Source of the DNA: Sulfolobus islandicus Y.N.15.51
Lineage (GTDB): Archaea; Thermoproteota; Thermoprotei_A; Sulfolobales; Sulfolobaceae
Assembly (NCBI RefSeq): GCF_000022485.1
Contig: NC_012623.1
Span: 682,001 to 746,000 of the forward strand
Direction of reading: 5' to 3'
Length of the DNA stretch: 64,000 nt
In this document: positions 23,932 through 63,320 of the stretch, one piece after another
Numbering within the stretch: position 1 is the first letter of the stretch
Layout: each line of letters begins with the position of its first letter
The notes under the pieces: model-generated
What the model was told of the DNA's origin: nothing
Seen by the model: only the letters and a program-made list of their open reading frames with translations
Databases searched by the model: none
Program-made: the position numbers and the translations under genes

Positions 23932-24834
23932 ATGCAGAATCTCTCGCCTACACAAAGGGAAATATTATTAGCACTTACAGATCTTTATAATAGGCAAAAA
24001 AGAATGATAAAAAGTAAGGAAGTGGCTGACATTATAGGGAAAGATGAGGGGACAGTAAGAAACATTATACTAAGCTTAAAGGTATTAGGTCTAGTTGAAT
24101 CGAAACCGGGACCTAATGGAGGCTACATGCCAACACTAAAGGCATATGAAATTATCAATAATCCTACATTAACTCCAATACTGGATAAACTAAATCTCTA
24201 TAAAGGAATGATAGAAACTGATATAAAAGTAGAGAATATTGAAATAATTGATATTACTAATCCTTCGGCAAATAGGGTTCTCCTAAAGGTAGAGGGGGAT
24301 CTAAGGAAATTAAAAGTAGGAGATGCCGTACGATTGGGTCCTACACCCTATAGTAGGCTAGTTATAGAAGGATTAGTATTACACTTAGATGAGAACAGTA
24401 AAGAAATCGTAGTAGATGTAAAGAGAATGATAAGTATTCCAAAGGAAAAAGTTAAAAATCTTATCTCCAAGAAACTTATAGCGTTAAAGCCAGAAACTAG
24501 CTTAAGAGAGGCCTCCATGATATTCTACAAGGAAGCAATAAGAGGTGCGCCTGTTATCAATCAAGACGAAAAAGTTGTAGGGATTCTAACTACAGCAGAT
24601 ATAATTAAAGCCTTTTTCGAAGGAAACTATACCGCTAAAGTGTCAGAGTATATGAAGACCAATGTAATAAGTATAAATGAAAATGAAGATTTGCTAGATG
24701 CAATTAGAAAAATGATAATTTACAATGTTGGTAGATTGCTAGTGTTAGATAGTAATAATAAAGCCGTAGGTATTGTAACCAGAACAGATATTTTAAGATC
24801 CATTGCAGGCCTAGAAGGCTTGTGGACATCTTGA
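23932..24834 (+). CDS. Transcriptional regulator with winged helix and two CBS domains
   Basis: 300 residues. A winged HTH (about 1-65, SPTQREILLAL...EVADIIGKDEGTVRN) is followed by a beta-rich linker of about 100 residues and two CBS motifs (about 180-235 and 240-295, each with an ...GILTTADI or GIVTRTDI end). CBS pairs sense adenosine nucleotides in many proteins. It probably regulates transcription in response to energy status; its targets are unknown. The next gene starts 13 bp inside its 3' end. Confidence 0.75.
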   Translation: MQNLSPTQREILLALTDLYNRQKRMIKSKEVADIIGKDEGTVRNIILSLKVLGLVESKPGPNGGYMPTLKAYEIINNPTLTPILDKLNLYKGMIETDIKVENIEIIDITNPSANRVLLKVEGDLRKLKVGDAVRLGPTPYSRLVIEGLVLHLDENSKEIVVDVKRMISIPKEKVKNLISKKLIALKPETSLREASMIFYKEAIRGAPVINQDEKVVGILTTADIIKAFFEGNYTAKVSEYMKTNVISINENEDLLDAIRKMIIYNVGRLLVLDSNNKAVGIVTRTDILRSIAGLEGLWTS

Positions 24835-38752: not shown

Positions 38753-39655
38753 ATGGAAACAGAGAAAGTTGTAATCGTGGGTGCGGGGTACTCGGGACTT
38801 AACGCTTATTATGAATTAGGGAATCATGTAGTTAAAACACTAATAGCTGATAAAGCTCAACTTGTATTTTATACTGCATATCTCCAAAAACTCATGTTTA
38901 ATAAAAATATTAAATATACAGCTAACATAAAACCAACCATAACGAGCAAGGTAAAGGAAATCGATTTAGAAAGAAAAACAGTGAAAATTGAAAATGGTAC
39001 AGAGATTCAAGGTCATAAACTAATCCTTGCTATGGGATGTAAAAGAGAACGCCAATTAGATATTATAGGAAGGATAATAGGAAAGGATAGAGTTAGCATA
39101 AGTGTAGAAAATCATCTAGATGAGTATCTTGGTATTCAACTGGCTTTTTATTTGAGAAAGCTAAACAAGGAAGTCTCTTACTACGGCCCAGTCCTAAAAT
39201 GGTTAGGGGAAAAAGTAAGTACTAAAGTTCTTGAATTATTAGAAAAGAATGGAATACGATTATCTGAAAAATCTGATGATATAATTCCTGCTTGTGACCC
39301 TAATGAGATAATTGGGGATTTCTTACCTATAAATGATAAATTGGAATATAAGAACGATGTGTTTGTAATTGGAGATATGATAAAGAATTACCCCAAATTG
39401 GGAGAGTTGGCAATGAGAGAGGGTATATATGTGGGCAGGTTAATATCTAGAAAAATTAATGAAAGCTTTAAACCGATTTTCATTAACATTATCGATACTG
39501 GTAAAGGAGAGGCTATACATATAAGGTCTAATGTTCCATGGAATGGGAATTTCGAAAGTGTAAGGGTATCAAAACTAAGGGCAATAATGAAGAGATTTAT
39601 CGAAAGGTATTACATTATCAGAAAGGGAAAAATGGGCATACTTTACAACTTATAA
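38753..39655 (+). CDS. FAD-dependent NAD(P)H/sulfide:quinone oxidoreductase-like protein
   Basis: 300 residues, shorter than NDH-2 or SQR (about 380-400). The N-terminal dinucleotide motif VGAGYSG, a mid-protein LILAMGC and the FAD-binding VIGDMI close to residue 205 place it with two-dinucleotide-binding flavoproteins. The missing length lies in the NAD-binding part, so electron donor use is unclear. It is divergent from the MqnA-like gene and followed by a strong inverted repeat. Confidence 0.7.
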   Translation: METEKVVIVGAGYSGLNAYYELGNHVVKTLIADKAQLVFYTAYLQKLMFNKNIKYTANIKPTITSKVKEIDLERKTVKIENGTEIQGHKLILAMGCKRERQLDIIGRIIGKDRVSISVENHLDEYLGIQLAFYLRKLNKEVSYYGPVLKWLGEKVSTKVLELLEKNGIRLSEKSDDIIPACDPNEIIGDFLPINDKLEYKNDVFVIGDMIKNYPKLGELAMREGIYVGRLISRKINESFKPIFINIIDTGKGEAIHIRSNVPWNGNFESVRVSKLRAIMKRFIERYYIIRKGKMGILYNL

Positions 39656-39723
39656 GATATCCAGGGACCCTGGGGGGAAATATCAAGGGGCTCCTCTCAT
39701 CTATCCTAAGGTCCCTGGATATC
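39656..39723. repeat. Perfect 14-bp inverted repeat between convergent genes
   Basis: GATATCCAGGGACC near 39656-39670 is mirrored by GGTCCCTGGATATC ending near 39723. As RNA it would form a 14-bp stem around a 40-nt loop. It begins at the stop of the flavoprotein gene and lies just before the UbiA-type gene end. It could be a two-way terminator, a structured RNA, or the ends of a tiny mobile element. No target duplication is evident. Confidence 0.6.
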
Positions 39724-39771
39724 TCTACTTTATTTTTTGTATTAGGGGGTTTTAACTTTTTCCTATTTTTC

Positions 39772-40680
39772 CTAAAATGGAATGCCTAGCACAACATCTA
39801 TATCAGCACCTAATCCTAACACAATAGATGAATATATATTGTAATAAAATGCTCTGCCGAAATCATTTTTCTGCGATGCTAAATAGTACGCATATGCCAT
39901 TATAAGACCGTGAAGAATAGTTGCAAATATAGCTATTGGACCTAATCCATAATACAAATCACCTAGAAGATCGAGTACTACAGAGAATAGTTGATTGAGT
40001 CCAGCAAATGTTAGAGCCCATCTCCCTAGTACCACAGCGAAACTATGTAAACCCATCTCTTTGTCGAATTCGGCATCAGGTATATGATTATAAAGATCGA
40101 ACCCCGCAGCCCATAAAATTGTTCCAATTACGAAAAACCATGGGACTTTCAAAAGAATCTGAACTAGGGAATTATAGTACAAACCCAATACAGCCACGGC
40201 ACCACTAAATACTGCCAATCCTTGGATTGATGCCAGATGATAGTTAGCGAATGCAGTATATCTTTTCATATAAGGGTATGACATTACTATTATCGCTACA
40301 ATAGGAGATAAGATAAATGCCCAGATATTGACAAAATATGACGTAATAAAGAATAAAATCAGAGAAGTAGTAATCATAGCCTTTGCTTCACTTATTTTTA
40401 TTGCACCAGTTACTAAAGGTCTATTTTTGGTTCTAGGATTCTTCGCATCTATCTCGACATCTGCTAAGTTATCGTTAGTCATTCCAGCAGTTCTTAAAAA
40501 GAATAAAGCCAAAAAAATCAATATTAATGTTGAAATTGGAGAAATTCCTTTAATTGCAACGAAAGCTCCTAAATAGGCCATAGGTAAACTAAAGAAAGTC
40601 TGCTCTATCCTTAAGAATCGCAAAATTACGTAAAATTTACTTCTAGTATTCTTGTTTAATCCGCCAGGATCCCAGCTCAC
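39772..40680 (-). CDS. UbiA-family prenyltransferase
   Basis: 302 residues from a GTG, with eight or nine hydrophobic helices. The first Asp-rich motif NDNLADVEID and the second motif DLYNHIPDAEFD are both present, as in 4-hydroxybenzoate polyprenyltransferase relatives. These enzymes attach an isoprenoid tail to an aromatic ring. In Sulfolobus, candidate products are caldariellaquinone or another prenyl lipid; the acceptor is unknown. The GTG overlaps the stop of cimA by 4 bp, so the two are coupled. Confidence 0.85.
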   Translation of the reverse strand: MSWDPGGLNKNTRSKFYVILRFLRIEQTFFSLPMAYLGAFVAIKGISPISTLILIFLALFFLRTAGMTNDNLADVEIDAKNPRTKNRPLVTGAIKISEAKAMITTSLILFFITSYFVNIWAFILSPIVAIIVMSYPYMKRYTAFANYHLASIQGLAVFSGAVAVLGLYYNSLVQILLKVPWFFVIGTILWAAGFDLYNHIPDAEFDKEMGLHSFAVVLGRWALTFAGLNQLFSVVLDLLGDLYYGLGPIAIFATILHGLIMAYAYYLASQKNDFGRAFYYNIYSSIVLGLGADIDVVLGIPF

Positions 40681-48149: not shown

Positions 48150-49043
48150 ATGATTATCATAATAGGTGCAGGAATAGCTGGATTGTTGCTAAGTAAGAGA
48201 GTAAACGCTGATTTAATACTGGAAGAGCAGCCTGTCATTGGTGGTGTTTTCGCTTCTGATAATGTGTTTGGAGTAGATTTGCCTTATGTGTTGCCGATAA
48301 TAAATAATCCTATGAAACTGACAAACATAGGACTTAACTATATTGAGTATGATTTAAAAATATTGTACAGAAAATATGACTATTTTAAAGATAAAATTTG
48401 CAAATTTTGCGATAAGTTACCTACATGGTTGAATTTTGATTTAATGAGAAAATTATACGTCGTACGGAATATCCCGGATTTTATAGCTACTTTATCTAAA
48501 AATGTGAGAATAGTTAAGGAATATCCTATAAGGATAGATGATAAGAAAATTATAACTAATAAGGGAAATGTGTATAAATACACCAAGACATATAACACTG
48601 GATCTTTGAAAAAAATGAGCAAATTATTAGGATTGGATAACTCAAATCTAAAGCATAAATCAGTGCTGACTTTAATGATATTAGCAAGGAAAGAATATGA
48701 GAGAGATTGGAATGTGCACTTGAGCGGAGATACAGCAGATTCTTTCTCAGTAATAATTAGGCTAGATAATATCATTAAAGATCTCGACTTATATTATGTT
48801 TACTCCTTCATTGATACGAATCAAAAGAACATTGATATAGATAGAATAATACTAGATCTAAAAAGAAGACAAATAATATCCCTCAATGAGATAGTAGCCT
48901 TTAGAAGTAAATTGATATCAGAAGCTCTTCTATTTGGCGAAATAAATGATAAAATGCTACCAAATGTAATAAACTGTGGTAGATTAGGTGAGTGGAAAAA
49001 TTACGACATTATCGAAACTATATCAAGAATTCAGAATTGCTAA
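48150..49043 (+). CDS. FAD/NAD(P)-binding oxidoreductase-like protein
   Basis: 297 residues. The Rossmann dinucleotide motif IIIIGAGIAGLLLS opens the protein. The rest is divergent and lacks an obvious second motif; a Cys pair (CKFCDKL, about residue 77-80) is present. It may be an amine-oxidase or phytoene-desaturase-like flavoprotein, uncertain. It overlaps the convergent PfkB-type gene by 26 bp. Confidence 0.6.
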   Translation: MIIIIGAGIAGLLLSKRVNADLILEEQPVIGGVFASDNVFGVDLPYVLPIINNPMKLTNIGLNYIEYDLKILYRKYDYFKDKICKFCDKLPTWLNFDLMRKLYVVRNIPDFIATLSKNVRIVKEYPIRIDDKKIITNKGNVYKYTKTYNTGSLKKMSKLLGLDNSNLKHKSVLTLMILARKEYERDWNVHLSGDTADSFSVIIRLDNIIKDLDLYYVYSFIDTNQKNIDIDRIILDLKRRQIISLNEIVAFRSKLISEALLFGEINDKMLPNVINCGRLGEWKNYDIIETISRIQNC

Positions 49044-62952: not shown

Positions 62953-63320
62953 CTATTTAGGCTCATAAGGCCTATTATTATACCATACACTCCATATAAT
63001 CCTTGCCAACTTCCTAGCCAAAGCAGTGTACAACTTCTTACCTTTTAACCTATCCCTATGAGACTCATAAAACTTCAACAATGTTGGGTTCCTAGAATAA
63101 TTCCTCACTGCCAAAAAGTAGAACAAGCTACGCAAGTACTTATTACCCCTCTTGGAAATCCCCCTACTTATTACAGCTCTTCCACTCCTTTCCACAACTG
63201 GGTCTAGACCACAATAGGCAACAAATGATTCTGGCTTGGGAAAACGCCTAACATCACCAACAACACCAATAATAACCCCAGCTGCAAGCCTCCCAACACC
63301 CGGTATCGTCAATAGGACGT
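62953..63320 (-). pseudogene. IS110-family transposase, C-terminal remnant
   Basis: The reading frame 63312-62953 (119 residues) is the Transposase_20 domain (TIPGVGRLAAG..., VAYCGLDPVVERSGRAVISRG). It lacks the DEDD half, so it is inactive. Its amino-acid sequence differs clearly from the 50.4 kb copy, so it belongs to a different IS110 subtype. Confidence 0.8.

Follow-up and report, generated by a model that had tools for sequence, protein, structure and literature searches.

The window, a 64,000-nt stretch of Sulfolobus islandicus Y.N.15.51 DNA, contains a hairpin between two convergent genes that we best explain, with a probability of roughly 0.6 on the evidence of comparative sequence analysis, as a standalone minus-strand gene for a small non-coding RNA. 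Judged separately, it is almost certain from its conservation that the element is a structured RNA, and very likely that it is an independent minus-strand gene; that the RNA functions in trans through its loop is a tentative proposal. The family defined by this hairpin is family-wide in Sulfolobaceae, covarying, promoter-bearing and absent from Rfam, and appears to be new. Its parts in the window are as follows.

39655..39724, minus strand: predicted structured non-coding RNA hairpin of 70 nt, 5'-AGATATCCAGGGACC...GGTCCCTGGATATCT-3' (fold z = −6.6; covariance-model match in 27/31 family genomes; covariation)
39710..39724, minus strand: 5' strand of the stem P1, with the nearly invariant core CAGGGACC
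39655..39669, minus strand: 3' strand of P1, with the nearly invariant core GGTCCCTG
39683..39699, minus strand: inner hairpin region UGA-GAGG-AGCC-CCUU-GA, k-turn-like in the window genus only
39687..39690, minus strand: first conserved loop C-run, CCCC (invariant alignment columns)
39672..39677, minus strand: second conserved loop C-run, CCCCCC, predicted mostly unpaired (columns partly invariant)
39750..39763, minus strand: BRE/TATA-like putative promoter GGAAAAAG-TTAAAA of the minus-strand RNA, an arrangement upstream of P1 that nearly all homologues share
39745..39749, minus strand: conserved CCCC(C) immediately after the TATA-like box
38753..39655, plus strand: NDH-like Pyr_redox_2 gene whose stop codon abuts P1 (convergent neighbor in 26/27 genomes)
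39772..40680, minus strand: UbiA-type prenyltransferase gene, a neighbor in some genera only, replaced elsewhere by XerA or other genes

The inverted repeat and its neighboring genes

The preliminary description reported a perfect 14-bp inverted repeat enclosing about 40 nt, which we found as described: GATATCCAGGGACC lies at 39656–39669, and 40 nt separate it from its exact complement at 39710–39723. The perfect arms in fact reach 15 bp (39655–39669 and 39710–39724), and 20 nt at 90%. RNA folding of the hairpin gave −41.1 kcal/mol (z = −6.6) for the minus strand and −36.0 kcal/mol (z = −3.7) for the plus strand. A perfect 14-bp repeat with a spacer of up to 80 occurred in 21 of 200 64-kb sequences simulated under an order-2 Markov model. 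By repeat statistics alone, the window repeat is notable and only suggestive, not decisive; the reality of the element was decided by conservation. Two other long inverted repeats were seen in the window, one at 24252–24381 (24 nt at 79%, 82 nt between arms) and one at 48670–48780 (19 nt at 89%, 73 nt between arms), the latter within a predicted ORF.

Among convergent pairs of ORFs of at least 100 aa in the window, nine overlap by 8–84 nt, and the NDH-like and UbiA genes are separated by a gap of 116 nt. The earlier statement that theirs is the only convergent junction with a gap was thus nearly right; it overlooked one other gap, at a 119-aa ORF of uncertain reality (62953–63312). The names given to the two genes hold: the NDH-2-like gene matches PF07992 (Pyr_redox_2), and the UbiA-type gene matches PF01040 and TIGR01475. 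The NDH-like protein (38753–39655) is only ~300 aa long, and its match to Pyr_redox_2 falls mainly in the N-terminal part; its gene is single-copy and conserved across Sulfolobaceae, beside a 220-aa protein without a Pfam match above cut-off.

Distribution and copy number

A DNA search of relatives located the element beside the NDH-like gene, both within the genus and in further Sulfolobaceae genera. A first covariance model of the stem (R1) matched 27/31 Sulfolobaceae genomes at E values of about 1e-9 or better, and a second model (R2, 24 sequences) recovered the same 27 at E values from 1e-24 to 1.2e-16, with one locus in each; the genomes without the hairpin were G011, G013, G021, and G024 (a draft, 71% complete). 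In the remainder of a 197-genome sample of the order, R2 found no convincing member outside Sulfolobaceae, though it returned a match in G344 at an E value of 9e-5, and a 250-genome sample of the phylum yielded only chance-like covariance-model matches outside the family. Candidates rejected as distant homologues included the phylum match L068 (6.5e-8), which by eye looks like a ribosomal-protein coding sequence, and L069 and L070, which have neither C-runs nor promoter. Second matches in G014 and G028 resemble coding sequence and have neither the C-rich loop nor the promoter, weak matches in G013 and G021 lack a promoter, and pattern matches in Streptomyces, Thermus and Chloroflexi were chance-like, without a TATA-like promoter. 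No Rfam 15 family reached its gathering score for four homologous loci, the window matches being sub-threshold and chance-like.

The hairpin is single-copy in its own genome and in every genome that carries it. The suggested search for further copies revealed no dispersed copies, only the one locus per genome, and viral contigs contained no match to the element. A mobile element or MITE is ruled out by these observations together with synteny, and the idea of a small mobile relic is refuted for an element that is single-copy, syntenic and vertically inherited.

Covariation, strand and promoter

The covariation proposed as a check across relatives was found in the stem. Over 24 distinct sequences, 96.4% of cells in the 16 pairs of P1 were paired and 9/16 pairs showed double changes; 0/500 shuffled controls reached either the paired fraction or the double-change count of P1, and slid controls were at most 55.3% paired. 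The compensatory changes that mark a structured non-coding RNA gene are thus present beyond controls. The stem core CAGGGACC/GGTCCCTG hardly varies among homologues. Inside the stem, two C-runs flanking a UGA, AGA or GGA triplet are conserved, and the inner hairpin takes a different form by genus (GGC/GCC, GGUUA/UAACC, GGAAA/UUUCC, GGAC/GUCC), with modest support for an inner helix in the other genera (p = 0.03). In the sequences searched, the only exact complement to the C-rich loop was at the element itself, and no long complementary target was found.

When the stem was read on the minus strand, G–U outnumbered A–C combinations by 20:3 in 16 distinct stems, a ratio that the plus strand inverts; the nominal p value of 0.0005 is indicative only, as the sequences are related. 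Because of this asymmetry, the minus strand most likely gives the functional transcript. In 26/27 genomes, a TATA-like box followed by CCC(C) lies 21–27 nt upstream of the minus-strand hairpin, preceded by A-rich sequence; in the window this promoter-like motif is GGAAAAAG-TTAAAA-CCCCC (39763–39745, minus strand). A conserved promoter of the element's own is thus present, as a sequence motif only, and its TATA-like box spacing agrees with the published layout of S. acidocaldarius sRNA promoters, in which TATA lies 24–30 bp upstream of the start (PMC12817955). The CCCC after the TATA-like box (39745–39749) is kept in nearly all homologues though it lies outside the predicted RNA, and it may be a regulator site. 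Among the options first put forward, a structured RNA is strongly supported by the family-wide conservation, the covariation and the conserved promoter-like motif.

Genomic context and alternative explanations

Upstream of the hairpin lies UbiA in g1, g3, g5 and most g10 genomes; its place is taken in g4, g7 and g11 by a XerA-like recombinase of the integrase family, and in g9 by other genes. The UbiA neighbor is incidental. In the genome G020, which we take to be S. acidocaldarius DSM 639, the element lies at 1268330–1268393 on the plus strand, beside a XerA-like gene. The xerA gene of S. acidocaldarius is named Saci_1490 (PMC2958812).

The tight adjacency of the hairpin to NDH makes cis control of the NDH-like gene the main rival: an antisense RNA, or a hairpin in the 3' end of the NDH mRNA, would set mRNA stability or termination. 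The NDH-like gene is convergent with and adjacent to the hairpin in 26/27 genomes, with another gene, of 220 aa, beyond it, and its stop codon usually lies no more than a few nt from P1. Against this, in G007 (a draft, 79% complete) the hairpin and promoter adjoin a peptidase-A24 gene (L064:733–1575) and NDH is on another contig, NDH is kept with no detectable hairpin in G011, G013 and G021, and both the wobble asymmetry and the promoter indicate the other strand. Given the relocation in G007 and the NDH genes that lack a hairpin, the hairpin and promoter behave as a single unit that can separate from NDH, and their joint occurrence away from the usual neighbor gives the element the look of an independent RNA gene; we consider cis control unlikely. 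In S. acidocaldarius, a peptidase A24 gene with a k-turn RNA upstream has been described (PMC10663502), and the peptidase A24 neighbor in G007 is probably a coincidence. A narrower form of the standalone-RNA explanation, in which a k-turn RNA would be bound by L7Ae as a C/D-like RNP scaffold, seems from the sequences comparably improbable. The window loop GAU-GA-GAGG-AGCC-CCUU-GA resembles a k-turn in layout, exact RUGAUGA and CUGA boxes occur in g4, and L7Ae RIP-seq in S. acidocaldarius gave 6 unknown sRNAs (PMC5539422), but neither the box motifs nor an immediately adjoining helix is retained from genus to genus. The k-turn features (3-nt bulge, tandem G–A pairs, adjacent helices) can be drawn in the window genus, not clearly in others, and a universal k-turn is not supported outside that genus.

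Somewhat less probable again is that the element is RrrR(+) of S. acidocaldarius or an sRNA already catalogued by some other name. RrrR is a known non-coding RNA of this species that regulates Saci_0301 (PMC10127717), the catalogues comprise 21 sRNAs of unknown function (PMC5539422) and 102 intergenic sRNAs (PMC12817955), and the locus may be listed there; a weak point on the other side is that no main text searched names it. A literature text search for CCAGGGACC with Sulfolobus returned no match. We regard the remaining two readings as very improbable. A bidirectional transcription terminator or insulator, one of the possibilities raised at the outset, would fit the position between convergent genes and the T-rich stretch that lies downstream of NDH in the window genus; it is disfavored by a conserved loop and stem sequence, by a promoter conserved on one side, and by the nine other convergent pairs in the window, which overlap and have no such hairpin. 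Archaeal terminators are generally U-tracts, not hairpins. A site acting at the DNA level (a protein-binding dyad, or a recombination or dif-like site) would account for nearly invariant palindromic arms and for the XerA-like gene adjoining in g4, g7 and g11, but not for strand-asymmetric G–U pairs, and XerA is not adjacent in most genera. Searches for Xer dif sites have used arms of 11–15 bp and spacers of 4–10 bp (PMC2958812), and the hairpin spacer of about 30–45 nt lies outside these limits.

Discussion

The sequences themselves show the structure, its conservation, the single copy, the promoter-like motif and the strand preference; from these we infer transcription of the standalone RNA gene and the exact ends of its product. 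The putative promoter just after the UbiA stop codon (GGAAAAAG-TTAAAA) would start minus-strand transcription at, or close to, the 5' end of the 15–16-bp hairpin; in S. acidocaldarius, the start site should then fall within a few nt of GGGTATCC. The product would be an RNA of ~70 nt plus a 3' tail of undefined end, running antisense into the last NDH-like codons. Its long stem, with the nearly invariant core CAGGGACC/GGUCCCUG, would present a C-rich loop composed of C4–5, a UGA-like triplet and C5–6, with a small inner hairpin, and the RNA might act in trans through this loop, which would offer a protein or RNA partner either a scaffold or a surface for pairing. Two observations count against parts of this proposal: for an RNA acting purely in trans, the NDH adjacency seen in 26/27 genomes is tighter than expected, and the near-invariant conservation of the stem core is stronger than the stem of a mere scaffold needs. 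One further reading, to which we give somewhat less than even odds, is a hitherto unrecognized family-wide Sulfolobaceae core RNA, a hairpin RNP scaffold whose nearly invariant stem and C-rich loop would bind a dedicated partner in a lineage-specific housekeeping or regulatory role, unlike the roles of C/D, H/ACA, SRP, RNase P and antisense RNAs.

To our knowledge, few family-wide structured archaeal small RNAs are known beyond the universal classes and guide RNAs. S. acidocaldarius is genetically tractable and apparently carries the element, single-copy and at a defined position, so that deletion, partners and expression are directly testable, and a covariance model for the hairpin RNA would allow genomes to be annotated at once.

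Like archaeal box C/D sRNAs, which form L7Ae k-turn RNPs, the hairpin RNA is a small RNA closed by a terminal stem, with UGAUGA and CUGA in some genera and a k-turn-like loop in the window genus. It differs from them in a far longer stem than usual and in having no conserved boxes, no guide regions with D'/C' and no Rfam match. Judged by the box C/D definition (C box RUGAUGA, D box CUGA, internal D'/C'), it falls outside the class, with exact boxes only in g4 and none in g1, g3 or g10, and too little sequence separates the box-like motifs to accommodate a usual C/D guide. Bacterial sRNAs with C-rich loops pair with G-rich ribosome binding sites. By analogy, they share with the hairpin RNA conserved C-runs on a stable stem; they belong to another domain, there is no homology, and the hairpin RNA has no Hfq-type terminator. 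With archaeal intergenic sRNAs that stand alone, among them RrrR of S. acidocaldarius and s479 of Haloferax, the hairpin RNA would share a short intergenic unit, its own promoter and a probable action in trans; unlike them, it is kept in nearly the whole family, with a covarying stem and a conserved C-rich loop.
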